This document shows, piece after piece, positions 1,072-31,786 of a stretch of DNA of 33,614 nucleotides (positions are counted from its first letter, which is position 1; each line of letters opens with the position of its first letter). Below the pieces are notes generated by a model. It was given only the letters and a program-made list of their open reading frames with translations. It had not been told where the DNA came from and did no database searches. The DNA is from Candidatus Omnitrophota bacterium (GTDB lineage Bacteria > Omnitrophota > Gorgyraeia > Zapsychrales > JANLHA01): the NCBI GenBank assembly GCA_023139575.1, contig JAGLNJ010000098.1, positions 1-33,614 of the forward strand, read 5' to 3'. A program made the position numbers and the translations under genes.

Positions 1072-1437
1072 ATGAAGAAATGTAAGTGTGTTTATTTCAA
1101 GACAGATGCTGGAAGAATTCCAGTTGAAGATTTTATTAATTCATTGGATGATAGAACGCAGCAAAAATATTTTGAAGTTGTAGGATTATTAGAAGATTAT
1201 GGAAAGAGGTTGCCAGCGCCACATTCTAAGCATTTGGAAGACGAAATTTATGAATTACGATTTACCGGCATAGAAGGTAGAGTAAGAGTTTTATATTTCT
1301 TTTATCATGCAGGAAAAGCAGTTTTCACAAATGGGTTGGTCAAGAAAAAAGGGCCAGTTCCACGAAATGAAATTAAGACAGCTAAAGAAAGAATGAAAGT
1401 TTACCTAAAAAGACAGACTAAAAAGAGAGTCTTGTAG
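1072..1437 (+). CDS. HigB/Gp49-like (RelE superfamily) toxin
   Basis: This 121-residue basic protein has the layout of the phage-derived Gp49-like/HigB family: VYFKTDAGRIPVEDFI at the N-terminus, then HLEDEIYELRF, then RVRVLYFFYHAGKAVFTNGL and a Lys/Arg-rich tail. Known members are ribosome-dependent mRNA interferases; the role here is by family. The ATG follows a strong ribosome site (AGGGGGAGAA). The antitoxin gene starts 15 bp after the stop, in the usual toxin-first HigBA order. The pair is AT-rich and lies among integrase and transposase scars, consistent with horizontal arrival. Nothing looks broken. Confidence 0.85.
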   Translation: MKKCKCVYFKTDAGRIPVEDFINSLDDRTQQKYFEVVGLLEDYGKRLPAPHSKHLEDEIYELRFTGIEGRVRVLYFFYHAGKAVFTNGLVKKKGPVPRNEIKTAKERMKVYLKRQTKKRVL

Positions 1438-1452
1438 AAAGAGGTGATAAGA

Positions 1453-1779
1453 ATGAAAGAAAGAACAGTAAATGAACATTTGCAGGAAAAATTAAAAGAT
1501 CCCTATTTCAAAGAGTTATATGAATTGGAACAACAAAAATATAGTATTGTTAGAAAGATTATCGATTACCGTATCAAAAAAGGGATCACACAAACAGATT
1601 TAGCTAAAGAAGCAGGGGTTTCTCAACAGCATATTTCTAAGATTGAAAATGGTGAATTTAGTAGTATTGTGACTTTAGAAAAAGTTTTGCTTCATATTGG
1701 TATGACAGTTAGAATGAAAGTTGTAGAATTAAATGCGACTGTCAAAAGACAAATCAAAAAGGCTATGGCAGCAGTATAA
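1453..1779 (+). CDS. HigA-type antitoxin, XRE-family HTH
   Basis: The product is 108 residues from ATG 1453. That start is chosen because AGGTGA (1442-1447) is well spaced from it; the GTG at 1444 overlaps this ribosome site and is unlikely. A Cro/C1-type helix-turn-helix spans roughly residues 44-90: ITQTDLAKEAGVSQQHISKI with NGEFSSIVTLEKVLLHIGM. It should neutralise the toxin at 1072 and repress the shared promoter at 1020-1048. The gene is complete and co-oriented with the toxin. Confidence 0.85.
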   Translation: MKERTVNEHLQEKLKDPYFKELYELEQQKYSIVRKIIDYRIKKGITQTDLAKEAGVSQQHISKIENGEFSSIVTLEKVLLHIGMTVRMKVVELNATVKRQIKKAMAAV

Positions 1780-10540: not shown

Positions 10541-10714
10541 TTGACTGAAATTCTTTTAACTGTTGAGCAGGTTGCAGACTATATTCAAATAAGTAAGTGG
10601 ACTATATATCGTTGGATAAAGGAAAAAAATATGCCTGTTTATAAGATGGGCGGGGTAAGTCGTTTTAAGAAAAGTGAGATTGATGAATGGATAATGAATC
10701 ACAAAGCAAAATAA
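10541..10714 (+). CDS. Excisionase-family DNA-binding protein (HTH_17, MerR-like)
   Basis: The product is 57 residues from TTG 10541 with AGGAG 6 nt upstream. TVEQVADYIQISKWTIYRWI, then GGVSRFKKSEIDEWI, is the typical winged helix of excisionase-type proteins. It overlaps the integrase start (10687) by 28 bp in another frame, so the two are probably translated from one message. Such proteins bend DNA at attachment sites and bias the integrase toward excision; that role is by family. Confidence 0.8.
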   Translation: MTEILLTVEQVADYIQISKWTIYRWIKEKNMPVYKMGGVSRFKKSEIDEWIMNHKAK

Positions 10715-11575
10715 CAATTAAGGCGAGAAGAAGGCGAATAATCAAGACACCCAAACCCTTTAAGAAACTAAACTATAAATGTTATTACATTAAGATTACA
10801 GGTATTGATGGCAAACGCAAAGATATCAATTTATGCACGGCTGATAAAAAAGAAGCAAGGCTTCGGGCTAAGCGAGAAATTGAATTGCTAAACAGCCAGC
10901 TTGACGGAAGCTTTGCTAAGGTAGTTGCGATTCGGGAGATGGTTAACCTATATGTTCAGTCTAAAACCAACTGGGCGGAAACAACTTCTCGTCGAAATAT
11001 ACAGCATTTAACATTCTTTCTAACCTTTATGAACACACATTATTCACAAATAAGATATTTTAATCATATCAACCAATCCCATATTGAGGAATTTCAAACA
11101 CAAAGGCTTAATGGAAAGTTAAGAAGCGGCAAAAGTATTTCTCCTAAGACGGTTCGAGAATCCGTTGGGGTTATCAACAATATGTTTGAATGGGCAATTA
11201 AGCGAGGCTACGCACTCTCCAATCCCGTTAAGAGAATTGAAAAGGTAAAAGTTATAAATAAAGACCAGCATAGGTTTACAGACCAAGAACTTTTGATGAT
11301 ATTGGAATACTGCAAAAATAGAAAAACCCTCACGCATATGTATGCACCCTATCTTATCTTAATAACAACAGGATTAAGAAGTGGCGAATTATCCAATCTT
11401 ATATGGGATGATATAGGCTTTGAGCGACGAGTTATTAAAATCCGAAACAAGACTCTCCCTGATGGGCGAGAATGGAATACTAAAACTCGGCAGAGACGAG
11501 AACTTAAAATGGAGGCTCTTTAACAAAATCTATGGGTAAAGATTTCTTACTTTGTTCGGATAAGAACAAGTAAAT
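10687..11575 (+). pseudogene. Tyrosine integrase with decayed C-terminus
   Basis: The open frame 10687-11523 (278 residues) has a basic N-terminal arm-type region, a core-binding domain (about residues 85-190), and the start of the catalytic domain with TTGLRSGELSNL (first Arg) and the Lys-bearing NTKTRQRRELKM. It then stops at 11521, before the HxxR, H and Tyr motifs. Beyond the stop, integrase-like coding continues in other frames (NKIYG, then KDFLLCSDKNK to ~11575), which indicates frameshift decay. A MITE sits 50 bp further on. The enzyme lacks its nucleophile and cannot catalyse recombination, so the module is stranded unless complemented. Confidence 0.8.
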
Positions 11576-12242: not shown

Positions 12243-13958
12243 ATGAGGAATACTCACGGTGTTTTGTTATCTGCAATTTTAGGGTCATTGCTTTTTTTTC
12301 AGTTGCCGGTTCACGGACAGCCGGCGCCGCAGCAGACAATAGGGGGTGTTACCAAGACAGAGTATGACACTGAGATTAGAAAAAAACTTGAACAGCGGAT
12401 TGAAACTGAGAAAGTAACCGGGCAAGAGGAACAAGAAGGCGGGATCATTCCTGAAGACTCCGGGCCGAGAATTTTAGTTGAATCTATTATTGTGGAAGGC
12501 GTTACGATTCTTTCCGGCAAAGAAGTTCAGGACATCATTGCGCCTTATCAAGGCAAAGAGCTTTCGCTTAAGAGTATGCAAAAGGTTTCTGACCTTATTA
12601 CCGATGCGTATCGACAAAGAGGTTATGTGACCTCAAGAGCGTATCTGCCTCCGCAAACGATACAAAAAGGTATTTTGTATATCCGTGTCGTTGAGGGTAA
12701 ATTGGGAAGCCTGGATATTAGAGGTAACCGTTATTTTAAAGAATCACTTATCAGAAAACGCGTATCCATCCAGCCGGATGGATATTTTGATTATAACGCC
12801 CTGCAAAAATCGCTGGTGTATATCAATGAACACCCTGACCGCGTGGCGCGAGCCATTCTCGTTCCCGGTAAAGTTCCGGGCAGCACAGATATAGTTATAG
12901 AGGTAGAGGACCGGATGCCCTTTCATGCCGGTTTTGAATACGATAATTACGGATCAAGATTTATCAATAAGAGTCAGTACTCAGTATTCTTGGAGCATAA
13001 CAATCTTTTAGGTCATGATGATCGGCTTTACCTTAAGGCGCAGTTCGCCGAGGCCAACGCTTTGAATATTCAGCAGGCAAGATATGTCTATCCTGTTTCA
13101 CCGTCATGGGATGTCGGGGTTTATGCCGTTTTGAGCAAACTCAAACTCGGGGAAGAATTTGCTGATCTGGATGCTAATGGAAAGGCGCAGTACTATGGCA
13201 TCTTTACAAGTAAGGCCCTTATTCAGGAAACAGATTTAGAATTACGCTGGAACCTCGGGTTCGATTACAAAAGTGTTATCAATGATCTATTAGGCGTAGA
13301 ATCATCCCGGGATGAATTACGCATTCTTAAGACCGGCTTTGATCTGGATGTCAGTGACAGTTGGGGGAGAACAATTGTTACCGCGCAGATCGATAACGGC
13401 CTGTCTGATATTCTGGGGGCCATGGATGACAAAGATAATCATGCGTCACGCGCGGGCGCCGGAGCAAAATTTAATAAAGGGGTTTTTAATCTCTTCCGCC
13501 TGCAGCCCCTGCCGTTTGAATCGACTCTTTTATGGAAGAATTCCGCCCAGTTTTCGAATCACACTTTAGCGGCTTCAGAGCAATTTCAAATCGGCGGCGC
13601 TTCAAGTGTGCGCGGATACACGCCGGCGGAACACTCCGGAGATACGGGTTATTACACGGCGGTTGAATTATCATTCCCGCTTTATCCTTTAAGCAAAAAT
13701 GTTAATGTGCCTTTTACCAAAGAAAATCTCTATGACGCTTTTCGTCTGGTTCTTTTTTATGATTTTGCCACGGCTCATTTAAACAAAACAGCTGCCGGCG
13801 AACAGGAAGATGAAACCTTGCGCGGGTACGGTTTCGGCGCAAGGCTTAATATAAACGACCGCTTGAATTGTCGTGTTGAAGTCGGATACCCGGATGGAAA
13901 ATTACCGTCAGACGGTGATCATGCCCATCCCTGGGTCGAATTTATGTGGAAATTTTAA
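12243..13958 (+). CDS. TpsB outer-membrane transporter (ShlB/FhaC/HecB family)
   Basis: The product has 571 residues; the ATG follows AGAAAGGAG. A signal peptide ends near VHGQPAP. A POTRA_2 domain (about 80-155) contains ISGK-type LSLKSMQKVSDLITDAYRQRGY, and a second POTRA (about 158-235) contains ILYIRVVEGKLGSLDIRG. A C-terminal 16-strand barrel carries the conserved loop-6 motif VRGYTPAEHSGD and ends in the aromatic WVEFMWKF. Length and order fit the family exactly. It should thread the TpsA protein encoded 47 bp downstream across the outer membrane, using the POTRA domains to recognise its TPS domain. Confidence 0.95.
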   Translation: MRNTHGVLLSAILGSLLFFQLPVHGQPAPQQTIGGVTKTEYDTEIRKKLEQRIETEKVTGQEEQEGGIIPEDSGPRILVESIIVEGVTILSGKEVQDIIAPYQGKELSLKSMQKVSDLITDAYRQRGYVTSRAYLPPQTIQKGILYIRVVEGKLGSLDIRGNRYFKESLIRKRVSIQPDGYFDYNALQKSLVYINEHPDRVARAILVPGKVPGSTDIVIEVEDRMPFHAGFEYDNYGSRFINKSQYSVFLEHNNLLGHDDRLYLKAQFAEANALNIQQARYVYPVSPSWDVGVYAVLSKLKLGEEFADLDANGKAQYYGIFTSKALIQETDLELRWNLGFDYKSVINDLLGVESSRDELRILKTGFDLDVSDSWGRTIVTAQIDNGLSDILGAMDDKDNHASRAGAGAKFNKGVFNLFRLQPLPFESTLLWKNSAQFSNHTLAASEQFQIGGASSVRGYTPAEHSGDTGYYTAVELSFPLYPLSKNVNVPFTKENLYDAFRLVLFYDFATAHLNKTAAGEQEDETLRGYGFGARLNINDRLNCRVEVGYPDGKLPSDGDHAHPWVEFMWKF

Positions 13959-14005
13959 TCTCAATTCCGGAAAGACCGCGTTTGTTGAAAAATGGAGGAT
14001 ATGTC

Positions 14006-16789
14006 ATGAAACGAAAAATGAAAAAAGTTATCTCTCTTGTAGTTGCTATTTGTTTTTCCTGCTTGCCGCAGGCCGCATATGCCTTGCCGCAGGGTGAGGT
14101 CGTTGTTGACGGGGCGGCGGGCTTTGACCGTTCGGTCGCCAATGAGCTCACCGTTAAGCAAACGACCGATAAGCTTATTGCTGATTATGATGCCTTTTCT
14201 ATCGCCGTGAGTGAAAAGGTTATTTTTGACCAGCCCTCAACATCCAGTGTGGCGCTGAACCGGGTTGTTGGTATTGATCCATCATTGATATTAGGGAAGT
14301 TGAAGGCGAATGGCCGGCTTTTCCTTATTAATCCTAACGGCATCGTCTTTGGAGAAGGTTCAAAAGTCGACGTCGCCGGATTAGTCGCTTCAACATTGGA
14401 TATCGACAATGATGATTTTCTGGCCGGGCGCTATAATTTCTTTGGTCAGGGGGGTACGGTGCTGAATTACGGCGAGCTTCTTTCCCCTGGCGGTTTTGTG
14501 GCCTTATTGGGTTCATCGGTCAGAAACGCCGGGATCATTAAATCAAATTTAGGAAGTGTTGCCTTAGCCGCGGGTGAGGCCGTAACATTAGACTTAGATC
14601 CACAGGGGCTGATTAGTGTTGTCGTCAATGAAAAAACAACAAAGGACATTGATAATAATGGTGCCGCTGTTATAAATACCGGTTTCATCGAAGCAAATGG
14701 TGGCGAGGTTATTTTGACAGCAAAATCATTGAGCAGTGTCTTTGATCAAGCTATTAATAATACCGGCATTATCGAGGCCGTTAATTTAGAAGAAGCTACA
14801 GGCCATATCGCATTATTGGCGGATGAAGATATTCATGTCGGGAATACCGTTACGGGTGGGTATGTGGAATTTGATTCATCCGACGGGAATGTGACGCATT
14901 TGACAAACAGCCAGGTTACCACGGATAATGAGAATTTCCGCGGTTCTGCGGGTAAAGATTATATCTTAAAGAATGCCGCGACGATTACGACGGGGGAAGG
15001 AGTTATTGATATTTACGCGGAAGATAATATCCTTTTAGGTTCCGCTGATGATGAGACGGTTATTAACTATGAATGGGATTACATTTTAGGTACAAGAGGT
15101 TATCATTTTACGGAATTCGGTTATTATTACGATGACGGCAATGGGATTGTTTATGTTCCTCTCGCTAAAGGGTCGAATATCGGCAAGCATGCTCACAGCC
15201 CGAGTTCAGGTTCGGGATTGATTTATGATGACCGTGACAGCCTTGACTTGTATACCGTTTCCAGGGATTATGACTGGAAGAAATTGACCTGGCATGATGA
15301 TCCCGCCCTTAACAGCGACGGGGAAGATCACCTGGTTGTTGACGGCATCCGTTATCAATGGGAGGATTTAGAGAATTTAGGGGACAGGGATTTCGATGAT
15401 GAAGTGTTTGATTTCGCTTATGACATTCAGACCTTTACAACGGGAGCGGAACTTAATTCGCGATCAAATGTTTTCCTAACAGCCAACAAAGGTTCTATCC
15501 ATCAGAACGGCGGCAATATCACTGCGGATAACTTGATGCTATCTGCTAATACAGGGATCAGCGGCACCAGCGCGAACAAGGGGTTGGACGCGACAGTCAA
15601 TGCCCTGTCGGCTTTAAATAAAACGGCAAATAGTTTGGCGCTCAATATTCAAAAAGCCGTTAAAGTGGCTGATTTGCGGAGATTGTCCGGGATCAATAAT
15701 GGGGTGGCAGGCAGCAACGGTGTAGAGAATAAAGCCGCTTGTGCAAAAGTTGACATCAAGGTCGCCGGCGATTTGGATATTATGGCTCCGGTTGTCAGCC
15801 ACGGCGATATCATTTTAGAAGCGGATGGAAGCATAACACAAAGCGGCGATGGTGATATAACAATCGTCCGCGACAGCGGGCTTTCTTTGAATCCGCCAAG
15901 CGATTTAGGTAGCCCTTCCCATCAAATTAACGTGCCTTCGGAGAATGATACCATTGAAGTGGTATGGGGGTTGCCGGAATGTGAAGACGGCGGCTGCGGT
16001 GATTTAACATCCACGGCAGGAGGCGCTTTTACCCAGGACGAAGGGACAAAGATCGCCACCAACGGCGGCGATGCTACCGTTGAGGCGCAGGATGACATCA
16101 GGCTGGCCTTAATTGACGCGGGTGACGGACATGCCAAGGTGACGTCGCATAAAGGTTCCATTTTAGACAATGATCTCGGTGTCGTGCCGGGTGATTATGA
16201 TGTGATCGCGCGCAATATCAAACTAGCCGCCGCGGGTCAGATCGGTGGATCCGGAGATCAAGAGGAAATCGATTTGGGCCAACCCGGTTACGGTTTTTCC
16301 CGCATTTTTGACATGATCGATGATACAGACCCGGATATATCGATCGACGATTATACAGTTTTTTTAGATAGTAATGGTGATTGGCGTTTTACGACGGCCT
16401 ATAAGACAACACAAGAGAGCGATAACTGGTGGTTTCATGTGGCAACGGTAGGCGAATCAAGAGAAGAAATGGGAATGTCCGAAACCGCGCATTTAGGGCC
16501 ATTTGTTATTGTTTCTGAACCGCCACCAACACCGGGAATTGATGTTTTGGATAATATCTTTGATAATTTCCGTGTTTACTATGAGATCTTGAGCCCCAGC
16601 CGGTTCGTCAGTTTTGAGCCGTCAACGAAAATCGGGCTTTACGCTTATCATCCGATTGTCAGTACAGATGAATCCGCCTTTGATGACATCAGGCTCGATG
16701 TGGATGCTTACGAGTTTATTGAGCGGAATATCAATCTAAAAGGACCGCTTTCGCCTTATTTCGACGTTGATGAAGAAGACAAAAAGTAA
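14006..16789 (+). CDS. TpsA exoprotein with filamentous haemagglutinin N-terminal (TPS) domain
   Basis: The product is 927 residues from ATG 14006, chosen for GGAGG 7 nt upstream. The signal peptide ends PQAAYA (residue 26). The TPS domain (about 27-230) has LNRVVGIDPSLILGKLKANG and the hallmark NPNGIVFG (109-116), then beta-helix-like repeats (LNYGELLSPGGFVALLGSSV). The central region (about 330-500) contains Asp/Tyr-rich segments that are not typical haemagglutinin repeats, and a CEDGGC pair lies near residues 659-664. The C-terminus is acidic (DVDEEDKK). No toxin or intein domain is visible. It is the TpsB substrate, probably a surface adhesin or S-layer-like protein; the exact role is unknown. 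Confidence 0.9.
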   Translation: MKRKMKKVISLVVAICFSCLPQAAYALPQGEVVVDGAAGFDRSVANELTVKQTTDKLIADYDAFSIAVSEKVIFDQPSTSSVALNRVVGIDPSLILGKLKANGRLFLINPNGIVFGEGSKVDVAGLVASTLDIDNDDFLAGRYNFFGQGGTVLNYGELLSPGGFVALLGSSVRNAGIIKSNLGSVALAAGEAVTLDLDPQGLISVVVNEKTTKDIDNNGAAVINTGFIEANGGEVILTAKSLSSVFDQAINNTGIIEAVNLEEATGHIALLADEDIHVGNTVTGGYVEFDSSDGNVTHLTNSQVTTDNENFRGSAGKDYILKNAATITTGEGVIDIYAEDNILLGSADDETVINYEWDYILGTRGYHFTEFGYYYDDGNGIVYVPLAKGSNIGKHAHSPSSGSGLIYDDRDSLDLYTVSRDYDWKKLTWHDDPALNSDGEDHLVVDGIRYQWEDLENLGDRDFDDEVFDFAYDIQTFTTGAELNSRSNVFLTANKGSIHQNGGNITADNLMLSANTGISGTSANKGLDATVNALSALNKTANSLALNIQKAVKVADLRRLSGINNGVAGSNGVENKAACAKVDIKVAGDLDIMAPVVSHGDIILEADGSITQSGDGDITIVRDSGLSLNPPSDLGSPSHQINVPSENDTIEVVWGLPECEDGGCGDLTSTAGGAFTQDEGTKIATNGGDATVEAQDDIRLALIDAGDGHAKVTSHKGSILDNDLGVVPGDYDVIARNIKLAAAGQIGGSGDQEEIDLGQPGYGFSRIFDMIDDTDPDISIDDYTVFLDSNGDWRFTTAYKTTQESDNWWFHVATVGESREEMGMSETAHLGPFVIVSEPPPTPGIDVLDNIFDNFRVYYEILSPSRFVSFEPSTKIGLYAYHPIVSTDESAFDDIRLDVDAYEFIERNINLKGPLSPYFDVDEEDKK

Positions 16790-29407: not shown

Positions 29408-31072
29408 TTATTTATTATGAATCAGTAAGTTGTTTTTGCCAAAATAGTTATGCGTATCTTCAACGGTAATATCATAGACACGGCCAGTGTAGTCCTTTGT
29501 TGTATTGCTTAATTTCGAGACCTTCTCCTCAGTCTCAAGATCTAGATAAACTCTGTGATCGTCCGTAAACCAATAGCCGCGATAAAAATATAATGTCCAT
29601 GTACCATCATGGATGGTGGTTTTGGTGATTTTCACTTTTTTTTCTTCGCCGTCTTTATATCCAATCACATAATTCCCCACTTTAAGATCTTCAATCTTTC
29701 GGAATCCTTCTGGTGTCCGCACTAGGCTGCCTTCTTCAAGGCACGCGGCAGCAGATTCGCAATAGAGAACCCCTTGACCGTCCGCCCCAATCTGAAGACA
29801 GCCCGAAAGATTTCTTATTCTCACATTGCCCCCCGCTACATCAAGTCTTTCTGTGGGGAAAGCTGTGTTAATGCCGAGGTCGCCGTTTTCGATAATCACG
29901 TGATTCCCGTCATGCCCCACCCGTATTCTATTTACAAATACGCCGCTGTCTATCGGATCCTCTACCTGGATCGCGAAATAGGAGTCATCCGTTGTTAAAA
30001 GAAAATCAAACGATGTGTTATCACTCAAGCGAACCGCCGGCTGGTCGTCTTCAATGGTTAGAGTCGGGCCAACAATGTGCAATGGCGTCTGGGGATCGGC
30101 GGTGCCGATGCCGACGTTGCCGTTGTCAAGAAAAGCTACTCGACTAGTCCAGATATATGGAAACGGGATTCCTGACGATAAGGATAACAGGCCTGATCCC
30201 GAATTATCAAACCTCCAATCCACATTGCCGCCAATCCTGCTTTGCAGCCTAACATCCGCGCTGGAGGTAGTACCTCCGTCTATTACTAAACTCTTGTCGA
30301 TGTACATCCGGTTATTCCCTACCCGCACTTTATTTGTAAATACGCCGCTGTCTATCGGATCCTCTATCTGGATCGCGAAATAGGAGTTGTCCGTTGTTAA
30401 AAGAAAATCAAACGATGTGTTATCACTCAAGCGAACCGCCGGCTGGTCGTCTTCAATGGTTAGAGTCGGGCCAACAATGTGCAATGGCGTCTGGGGATCG
30501 GGTGTTCCGATGCCGACGTTTCCGGTCGTGCCTTTGATAACCATTTTATAGCTTTCAAACCCTTCAGTTCCACCCCAAATAGCAAAATCATTATTTAGAT
30601 TATCAGGCAGGCCGGTAAAGTGCATAGCTCGTAATTCCCATATGGAATCAGCACTCTCAGTCTGCTGAAGCCTTAAAGTTGTGGGGTCGGGGCCGGCGCT
30701 TTCAATATGAAGATTTGTTAGAGGAGTTTCGGTGCCGATACCGACGTAGATATCAGGATCGGTACTGGTCCCTATTGGAAAAATGTTATTACCTGTTTTT
30801 GTCCATACCCCTGAGAGGGGCTCCCATGAACCGGTATCTGTGCTGTCGTCTCGGCAAAGCCAGATGCGGTCAGCATCACCTATTATTTCTTCTATGTATA
30901 ATGTCCCGCTATCACAGGGGCTGATGCCGCTTAGGTCGTTACGCGGCACTAACCTCAGCCGGTCATAGGCTCCGAAGGGCGCAGGATAATAGGTGGTTAA
31001 GGTTATGGATTCTGCAAAAACCGGAGTAGCTGCAATTGTAATTAAAACGAGAAACAAGAAAGTTTTTTTCAT
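29408..31072 (-). CDS. Secreted repeat protein with C-terminal Hint (intein-like) domain
   Basis: The product has 554 residues. The signal peptide ends TPVFA before ESITLTTYYPAPFGAYDRLR. The body consists of tail-fibre-like units of the form GNVGIGTxxPQTPLHIVGP; one ~60-residue unit occurs twice nearly unchanged. From C444 a Hint domain follows: block A CLEEGSLVRTPEGFRKIEDL, block B WFTDDHRVYL, block F RVYDITVEDTHNYFG, and the final H552-N553 followed only by Lys554. Hint domains cleave or splice autocatalytically; here nothing follows for splicing, so N-terminal thioester cleavage or attachment is more likely. AAGG precedes the ATG. A terminator, a GEMM-like RNA and a promoter lie upstream, implying control by a cyclic dinucleotide. 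Confidence 0.85.
   Translation of the reverse strand: MKKTFLFLVLITIAATPVFAESITLTTYYPAPFGAYDRLRLVPRNDLSGISPCDSGTLYIEEIIGDADRIWLCRDDSTDTGSWEPLSGVWTKTGNNIFPIGTSTDPDIYVGIGTETPLTNLHIESAGPDPTTLRLQQTESADSIWELRAMHFTGLPDNLNNDFAIWGGTEGFESYKMVIKGTTGNVGIGTPDPQTPLHIVGPTLTIEDDQPAVRLSDNTSFDFLLTTDNSYFAIQIEDPIDSGVFTNKVRVGNNRMYIDKSLVIDGGTTSSADVRLQSRIGGNVDWRFDNSGSGLLSLSSGIPFPYIWTSRVAFLDNGNVGIGTADPQTPLHIVGPTLTIEDDQPAVRLSDNTSFDFLLTTDDSYFAIQVEDPIDSGVFVNRIRVGHDGNHVIIENGDLGINTAFPTERLDVAGGNVRIRNLSGCLQIGADGQGVLYCESAAACLEEGSLVRTPEGFRKIEDLKVGNYVIGYKDGEEKKVKITKTTIHDGTWTLYFYRGYWFTDDHRVYLDLETEEKVSKLSNTTKDYTGRVYDITVEDTHNYFGKNNLLIHNK
29939..30118. repeat. 180-bp direct repeat, copy A (within the Hint protein gene)
   Basis: It matches 30341-30520 with about six differences; the offset is 402 bp. 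It encodes the duplicated VGIGT...PLHIVGPTLTIEDD unit of the body. The near-identity, including third positions, points to recent duplication or gene conversion. Confidence 0.9.
30341..30520. repeat. 180-bp direct repeat, copy B (within the Hint protein gene)
   Basis: Partner of 29939-30118, same orientation, about 174 of 180 bases identical. Confidence 0.9.
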
Positions 31073-31118
31073 AAGATAACCTTTTTTAAGAGTTTATACA
31101 TTTTTTATTTTACCACTG

Positions 31119-31157
31119 CTAAAAAATAAAAAAACCTATTTCTACAGAAAATAGGTT
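31119..31157 (-). terminator. Terminator between the riboswitch-like RNA and the Hint protein gene
   Basis: AACCTATTT (31133-31141) pairs with AAATAGGTT (31149-31157). Read on the minus strand the stem is followed by T7-A-T6. It lies between the aptamer-like RNA and the start codon at 31072, as the expression platform of a transcription-attenuating riboswitch would. Confidence 0.85.
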
Positions 31158-31183
31158 GGGTTTTAAAAACCAATTGTTTCATT

Positions 31184-31298
31184 GGCAGCTGGCTACCCTG
31201 TACCGTACGGTACAGGATCCTATAGCTTTGTCAGTACACCAAGTCGGATACACCGCCATGAACCCCATGTGGTTCATGGGCCCTACCCTTTCGAGCAG
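31184..31298 (-). promoter_or_regulatory. GEMM-I-like riboswitch (cyclic di-GMP-I or related), 5' half divergent
   Basis: On the minus strand the 3' half reads GACAAAGCTATAGG, then a perfect 20-nt hairpin palindrome (31197-31216), then GGTAGCCAGCTGCC forming a short hairpin (31184-31197). This order matches the conserved CGCAAAGCyAyrGGG, P2 stem and GGtAGCCaGcTgCC blocks of GEMM-I riboswitches. Upstream a strong hairpin CATGAACC/GGTTCATG (31257-31278) and GAAAGGGTAGGGC are present, but the usual GGCAAACC and GAAA-tetraloop stem are not seen in standard form. It is therefore a variant or partly decayed member. Ligand specificity (c-di-GMP or cGAMP) cannot be read from the sequence. Confidence 0.68.
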
Positions 31299-31361
31299 TT
31301 TACCTTTATCAATGAAGAAGAAATTCCTTCCAGTCAAAAGAACAGTAAATTATCTATTTAA

Positions 31362-31390
31362 AATATAAAACAAATAGAGGGGATAGTCAA
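31362..31390 (-). promoter_or_regulatory. Promoter of the riboswitch/Hint protein unit
   Basis: On the minus strand TTGACT (31390-31385) and TATATT (31367-31362) are exactly 17 bp apart, placing the transcript start near 31355, about 55 nt before the aptamer-like region. Confidence 0.7.
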
Positions 31391-31464: not shown

Positions 31465-31487
31465 ACTTATTTACAGTTGTTCTTTAC

Positions 31488-31786
31488 GTCCCTGTAGCTC
31501 AGTTGGATAGAGCATCTGCCTTCGTTAAGGAGCCTTCATGGGGAAATCAACCTATGAAGTGGACATCGCTAATTCGGTGGAAGCCCTTTCAGATTGTAAG
31601 GGTTATACCGAGCTACCCCGCCTGTTTCGCTTTGCAAAACAAAGCGGCGGGGGAGTGTAGAGACTTTACACGATGGGGCTGAGATGCCCAAGATAAAGTC
31701 CAGCCAGCAAGCCTAAATGGGTGGTTAAGGTAACTTAATGCTGGATGCTAAGCAGAGGGTCGAACGTTCGAGTCGTTCCAGGGACG
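31488..31786 (+). tRNA. tRNA-Arg(TCT), interrupted by a group I intron
   Basis: The exons are 31488-31522 and 31748-31786. Joined, they give a 74-nt tRNA: acceptor GTCCCTG/CAGGGAC with discriminator G31786, D-stem GCTC/GAGC, anticodon stem TCTGC/GCAGA with loop CTTCTAA (anticodon TCT), variable loop GGGTC, T-arm GAACG-TTCGAGT-CGTTC. The intron lies between anticodon positions 34 (T31522) and 35 (C31748). CCA is not encoded. Standard tRNA scanners would miss or misplace this gene unless intron-aware. Confidence 0.93.
31523..31747 (+). ncRNA. Group I self-splicing intron (tRNA type, IC3-like), 225 nt
   Basis: The 5' exon ends in T and the intron ends in G, as group I introns require. Helices are visible in order: P2 CTTCAT/ATGAAG (31534-31539, 31554-31559); P3 CATCG/CGATG (31564-31568, 31671-31675); P4 TTCGGT/ACCGAG (31573-31578, 31607-31612); P5 CCCTT/AAGGG; P6 CCCGCC/GGCGGG with P6a CGCTTT/AAAGCG; P7 GACTTT/AAAGTC; P8 GGGC/GCCC; P9 CCAGC/GCTGG (31704-31708, 31740-31744). 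The GTGTAGAGACTT and AAGATAAAGTCC blocks resemble the guanosine-binding core of the Azoarcus tRNA-Ile intron. A possible guide pairing is CCTT/AAGG, which puts A rather than the usual G opposite the splice-site T. No homing endonuclease is encoded. Confidence 0.92.

Follow-up and report, generated by a model that had tools for sequence, protein, structure and literature searches.

A predicted c-di-GMP-I riboswitch with a two-hairpin insert at its ligand junction precedes a fibre-type protein gene in Omnitrophota

The leader RNA of a fibre-type protein gene in Candidatus Omnitrophota is, judged by its sequence and predicted fold, a class I c-di-GMP (GEMM-I) riboswitch, and it carries a 48-nucleotide insert of two back-to-back hairpins at the ligand junction. 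The GEMM-I fold itself is known and is among the best-studied riboswitch folds; the subtype with a two-hairpin insert at this junction appears to be new. The locus lies in a 33,614-nucleotide stretch of DNA (hereafter the window), which is contig C203 within a 2.5-Mb draft genome (G000). Read along the minus strand from 31390 to 29408, it comprises in order a promoter, the GEMM-I riboswitch, a U-tailed hairpin, a ribosome site and the gene for a fibre-type protein with a signal peptide (Table 1). We assign a probability of roughly 0.7 to a full explanation in which a c-di-GMP-I riboswitch with a repeat-derived insert would control the fibre gene by transcription termination and a Hint domain would cleave the encoded protein. 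An initial annotation, made from the sequence, had described such a transcriptional unit, and the promoter, the ribosome site with its start codon and the arrangement with the fibre gene are all supported here. What makes the locus unusual, its two-hairpin insert, had escaped that annotation.

Table 1 Features of the riboswitch and fibre gene locus, in window coordinates
Feature	Position	Strand	Basis
Sigma-70-like promoter TTGACT-N17-TATATT	31362–31390	−	Sequence; about 1.4 such matches expected by chance across the stretch
P1 5′ strand TTCATTG	31310–31316	−	Complement of 31184–31178
GEMM-I (c-di-GMP-I) aptamer, including two-hairpin insert	31181–31314	−	RF01051 and own family model R2
G20 equivalent, predicted c-di-GMP contact	31304	−	Placed by Vc1/Vc2 spacing to C44 and A47
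P2 hairpin (P1b), GAAA tetraloop, CTGCTC-GAAA-GGGTAG	31283–31298	−	Folding and alignment
G-G-C, its C the equivalent of C44 of the universal interhelical pair; insert starts directly after	31280–31282	−
Insert hairpin A, CCATGAACC-acatgg-GGTTCATGG	31256–31279	−	Folding, alignment, partner exchange
Insert hairpin B, CGGTGTATC-cgactt-GGTGTACTG	31232–31255	−	Folding, alignment, partner exchange
Conserved AC-AAA-GC; A47 equivalent at 31229	31225–31231	−
P3 stem-loop; canonical 11-nt tetraloop receptor unrecognisable	31187–31227	−
P1 3′ strand CAATGAA	31178–31184	−
AU-rich terminator-like hairpin AACCTATTTTCTGTAGAAATAGGTT and U-rich tail	31126–31157	−	Folding, −8.0 kcal/mol
Ribosome site AAAGG, then ATG	ATG at 31072	−	Sequence
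Secreted fibre-type protein, 554 aa: TLTTYYPAPFGAYDRLRLVPR N-terminal module, GIGT-type repeats, C-terminal Hint	29408–31072	−
Hint/intein-like domain, aa 444–554: Cys444, TDDH 503–506, terminal HN then K	29411–29743	−

A covariance search against the Rfam GEMM-I model (RF01051), which the initial annotation had suggested as a check, matches the full model (positions 1–87) to nucleotides 31314–31181 of the minus strand with an E value of 4.7e-4, and this match, along with the retained G20 and A47, bears out the GEMM-I identity. The score of 29.5 bits falls short of the curated cut-off of 35 bits, which is a detection threshold and not a structural feature. A default cmscan of the window with Rfam therefore reports no GEMM-I, and we attribute the shortfall to the 48-nucleotide insert. 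With our own family model (R2), whose members include the window copy itself, the aptamer scores 109 bits in a whole-genome search. The RNA also folds well below its shuffled counterparts (z-score of −3.9).

All three helices that surround the ligand junction (P1, P2 and P3) are present in the window copy, as are both ligand contacts, G20 and A47. The equivalents of G20, C44 and A47 were placed with the help of the G12-C36-A39 spacing of Vc1 (PMC4744006). The 3′ block GCUGCC aligns identically to RF01051, a correspondence of the block in which C92 is not mapped residue by residue. P2 ends in a GAAA loop of the GNRA type, and the canonical receptor in P3 is unrecognisable, as it also is in the RF03167 consensus. 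The stem that had been labelled a P2 palindrome in the initial annotation is P3. Immediately 5′ of the insert stands C44 (Vc2 numbering), which we take to be the base of the universal interhelical pair; its pairing G (C44-G83) is likely to lie in P3, although its exact position is not mapped. Canonical GEMM-I RNAs occur at other sites of the same genome, one of them (L002) near a reading frame that carries a GGDEF motif.

The insert lies exactly between C44 and the A47-bearing RC-AAA strand. Hairpins A and B abut without a linker, and the window conforms to a pattern of GRC, hairpin A, hairpin B and RCAAA. The genome holds another copy of the RNA (G000:C147), in which both hairpins recur with compensatory changes, and a first covariance model built from these two copies found many more in the order. 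The exact GRC-hairpin-hairpin-RCAAA fold is formed by 30 of 34 parsed inserts (mean z-score of −4.1) compared with 8 of 6,800 dinucleotide shuffles. In an alignment of 43 matches, most of them insert-bearing, which leans toward structure through its fit to the model, standard pairs make up 95.1% of pair cells against 68.1% in shuffles, two-sided changes occur at 37 of 40 pairs, and none of 500 shuffles reaches any of the measures. Every pair in hairpins A and B covaries in this alignment. Exchanging partners among copies depends less on model fitting, with hairpin borders derived from folding: the outer six base pairs of A and B are 94% and 96% paired with their own partners, against 62% and 55% with swapped ones. 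Such covariation is no proof of a role for the insert in the riboswitch, since repeat and RNA-function models both predict pairing. A kissing loop between hairpins A and B, which fits some G031 copies by eye, does not fit the window.

Searches across the order and the class recover the same RNA throughout. Across the class, a second model has matches in 291 of 384 genomes. Its best matches listed come from about 20 families and mostly span 115–185 nucleotides; their ranking favours insert-bearing copies and so does not give the true share of the insert. At 20 further sites in other families, a set that is not fully independent because a few coincide with GTDB loci already aligned, 14 RNAs pass a strict automatic test and the remaining 6 show two junction hairpins by eye. 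Of the pattern matches in GTDB, those upheld by the covariance model belong to Candidatus Omnitrophota with two exceptions, a record titled only ‘bacterium’ and a weak Salipaludibacillus match (18 bits, E 0.004); almost all matches from outside the phylum were rejected by the model. Near-identical inserts are found in the window (family f1) and in G305, a genome of the distant family f33. No description of the insert appears in Rfam models or in the literature searched, whose coverage is incomplete. Insert-bearing GEMM-I RNAs are missed or under-scored by current models throughout the phylum, and the c-di-GMP regulons of Omnitrophota are underestimated as a result.

Placement is not entirely uniform. 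At four loci (L141, L146, L148 and L153, in G014, G042, G010:C46 and G027:C57) the doublet comes after CAAARCTAT and not before it, a placement termed type B, and in a further RNA of the window's genome (L156, G000:C11:15406-15566) the usual two-hairpin insert is joined by two extra hairpins on the P2 arm. These loci show that doublets can be accommodated at more than one place in the vicinity of the pocket.

In origin, the insert is probably a doublet of REP-like repeats that has been accommodated and perhaps co-opted, because in several genomes its hairpins copy dispersed REP-like palindromes that also occur elsewhere as linker-less doublets. Dispersed imperfect palindromes, often arranged as inverted doublets, are seen in G031, G361, G335 and other genomes. 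For example, G031 has 14 copies of TGAACC-N6-GGTTCA and G361 has 9, compared with none of a backward control; many copies lie outside riboswitches, and several form linker-less doublets such as CCCTGAACCACATGGGGTTCAGGG-CCATGAACCCACCGTGGTTCATGG. The inner 18 nucleotides of hairpin A in the window are identical to a repeat copy in this doublet (G031:C2:52010), and G031 belongs to a different family; in the genome of the window, the exact pattern of the window's palindrome does not occur a second time. A palindrome of the form CGAAGCTC..GAGCGAAG is present in seven of eight genomes, and just one of twelve further regions fetched with it is another GEMM-I. Furthermore, hairpins A and B of G335, G053, G008, G047 and G031 are similar to each other once one of them is reverse-complemented (scores of 23–47, background about 11).

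On this reading, the insert most likely arose as an inverted pair of REP-like palindromes at a tolerant junction, and at many loci it has since been retained with its helices intact. The P2 closing pairs, the P2 hairpin, hairpin A and hairpin B would form a four-way junction beside the ligand pocket. Gain or loss of the insert is frequent, since homologous loci occur with and without it. Among riboswitches of fibre homologues it is present in G015 and lacking in G007, G038, G051 and G045, and among those of a TPR gene it is shared by the f1 and f4 homologues and absent in G033. The fixed position, the intact core and the near-identical insert in distant G305 all argue against pure parasitism.

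Alternatively, the two hairpins could have been a functional domain of this GEMM-I subtype from its ancestor onward, with the dispersed repeats as later derivatives or convergent palindromes; the four-way junction would then modulate ligand affinity or kinetics, or serve as a docking site for a protein or a second signal. We regard such a domain as possible but doubtful. Placement exactly after C44 in nearly all cases, occurrence across about 20 families, the close likeness of the f1 and f33 inserts and the insert common to the TPR leaders of f1 and f4 would all fit it, but riboswitches of homologous genes exist both with and without the insert, and the insert sequence families match repeats scattered through the same genomes. 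A broader proposal that builds on the repeat doublet, namely that Omnitrophota have repeatedly recruited REP-like doublets into the c-di-GMP riboswitch junction as a standard four-way-junction domain that alters c-di-GMP sensing, is put forward as less likely than not. It is rather improbable that the insert is neutral or damaging and the window riboswitch decaying, a reading to which its labile presence, repeat-like sequence and score under the Rfam cut-off might lend themselves, as G20, C44, A47, P1, the GNRA-capped P2 and P3 are intact and inserts throughout the phylum preserve the aptamer core and covary. The insert family constitutes a natural experiment in the entry of repeats into a structured RNA without its destruction, and it makes the question of mobile palindromes becoming working riboswitch parts directly testable.

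The predicted ligand of the window riboswitch is c-di-GMP, since the copy has G20, and A at this position is reportedly the mark of cGAMP-type GEMM-I RNAs in work by Kellenberger and by Nelson. The initial annotation had named cGAMP as a possible ligand as well, a suggestion that G20 makes highly improbable, even though the GEMM-I class includes cGAMP types (PMC8835794; GEMM-Ib) and A occupies position 20 in another insert-bearing GEMM-I of the window's genome (G000:C126). The weakest reading of all, a chance look-alike prompted by the sub-threshold Rfam score, is very improbable given the E value of 4.7e-4 over the full model and the covarying relatives that share the same insert.

Control of the fibre gene probably proceeds via transcription termination. 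By binding where P1, P2 and P3 meet, c-di-GMP would stabilize P1 and determine whether RNA polymerase reads through the hairpin and its U-rich tail into the gene. This hairpin had been described as a strong terminator; the hairpin and its U-rich tail are indeed present, but the strength was overstated, since the stem is AU-rich with a folding energy of −8.0 kcal/mol, and it fails a strict terminator scan. Folding with P1 forced leaves the terminator hairpin unchanged, and for a candidate antiterminator formed by the J/P3 strand and a terminator arm, own pairs were no better than foreign pairs. With no antiterminator identified and the terminator hairpin in place despite a forced P1, the regulatory logic is a guess.

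The gene downstream encodes a secreted repeat protein with an intein-like end, as initially annotated. Its N terminus is signal-peptide-like, and two near-identical repeats (NVGIGT.DPQTPLHIVGPTLTIEDDQPAVRLSDNTSFDFLLTTD) from residues 185 and 319 (30520–29980, minus strand) appear to be a sign of recent internal duplication. The C-terminal Hint domain matches TIGR01443 with 25.1 bits (cut-off 15.6) and PF14890 with an E value of 1.3e-7, just below the cut-off of that model, and it has Cys1, TxxH and a penultimate His followed by a terminal Asn. No nucleophile (Cys, Ser or Thr) follows this Asn, as the protein ends HN-K; splicing is not expected with Lys alone after HN. The Hint domain would plausibly, and in our view probably, cleave the fibre at Cys444, and the protein would be displayed on the surface. 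A single-sequence AlphaFold model of the Hint end has a pLDDT of 38.6, too low for use. Viral contigs yielded no Hint relatives, and among 293 genomes of the class there is no close copy beyond the window's own, with two marginal matches.

The N-terminal module of the fibre protein has a match in 39 of the 54 genomes of the order. A survey of relatives for the same RNA upstream of homologues, whose absence the initial annotation had named as a refuting condition, revealed a GEMM-I upstream on the same strand at 6 of 32 fibre homologue loci (G000, G015, G007, G038, G051 and G045), which span four families (f1, f2, f4 and f5); two of these six RNAs, those of the window and G015, bear the insert. 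By our own estimate, which assumes about 2–15 such RNAs per genome of about 2,000 genes, this pairing is far above chance. A Peptidase_S74 C terminus is present in six of seven homologues tested, three of them with YadA-head repeats, and the riboswitch-carrying homologues end mostly in Peptidase_S74, with some other tails. The Hint domain occupies the place of the Peptidase_S74 end of several homologues. Thus, the link between riboswitch and fibre is recurrent. The riboswitch-Hint pairing, initially proposed as a system, is an individual case, since the Hint end is unique among the 293 genomes and homologues end otherwise. Seven fibre genes (L043, L044, L046, L047, L049, L055 and L056) have PyrR-binding-site RNAs beside them on the opposite strand (RF00515, 41–59 bits; two exceed the cut-off, 54 bits), which points to conserved synteny with a pyr operon.

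The window RNA shares with Vc2 of V. cholerae (GEMM-I, RF01051) the P1/P2/P3 layout, the GNRA-capped P2, and G20, C44 and A47, and with Vc2-type GEMM-I RNAs the conserved 3′ GCUGCC and a U-tailed hairpin before a surface-protein gene. It differs in the 48-nucleotide insert that separates C44 from the A47-bearing strand, in having no recognisable canonical receptor and in scoring below the cut-off. Several canonical copies that precede fibre genes in Omnitrophota match best to the c-di-GMP-I-GGC family (RF03167), whose consensus, like the window, lacks the CUAAG..UAUG receptor; in contrast, the 80-position RF03167 model contains no insert, and the window copy scores 23.3 bits. The dispersed palindromes, often inverted linker-less doublets, are like REP/BIME elements, whereas the Omnitrophota doublet lies within a riboswitch aptamer at one fixed position. 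With Peptidase_S74 fibres, which carry an endosialidase-type chaperone, the window protein has the N-terminal module in common, and both ends are potentially self-processing, although the window protein has a Hint/intein-like end instead. Like BIL/Hint domains of secreted proteins, it combines Cys1, TxxH and terminal HN on an exported protein; unlike them, it has Lys alone after HN, and at most cleavage or ligation is expected.

Several further observations concern GEMM-I variants and the surroundings of the locus. Two insert-bearing GEMM-I RNAs, L125 (G000:C126:7354-7512) and L150 (G008:C13), have A at position 20, the cGAMP-type mark. In a tandem arrangement (L117), an insert-bearing G20 copy (G031:C36:98850-98984) is closely followed by a canonical A20 copy (98746-98832) ahead of a subtilase-like gene, and a c-di-GMP/cGAMP pair is possible. 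Another GEMM-I group, set apart by an elaborate and long P3 (L070 and L072–L078, in G007, G027, G022, G010, G019, G001, G040 and G053), has a 5′ end, AGCCGATAAAG, complementary to CTTTATCGGCT of the downstream terminator, which suggests direct competition between aptamer and terminator. Long GEMM-I matches with plain P3 expansion (in G007, G022, G040 and others) were excluded as a different variant. In the window itself, nucleotides 31487–31520 of the plus strand (CGTCCCTGTAGCTCAGTTGGATAGAGCATCTGCC) resemble a tRNA gene of which the 5′ half is present, broken off close to the anticodon arm; neither ARAGORN nor Rfam reports a tRNA at this position. Judged by ORF translations alone, two integrase-like ORFs and an adjacent RelE/HigB-like and HTH pair lie near a tRNA-Pro gene (278–820, 10687–11523 and 1072–1779, plus strand). 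The plus strand also carries a two-partner secretion pair at 12243–16789, with a ShlB/FhaC-type transporter and a TPS-domain exoprotein.
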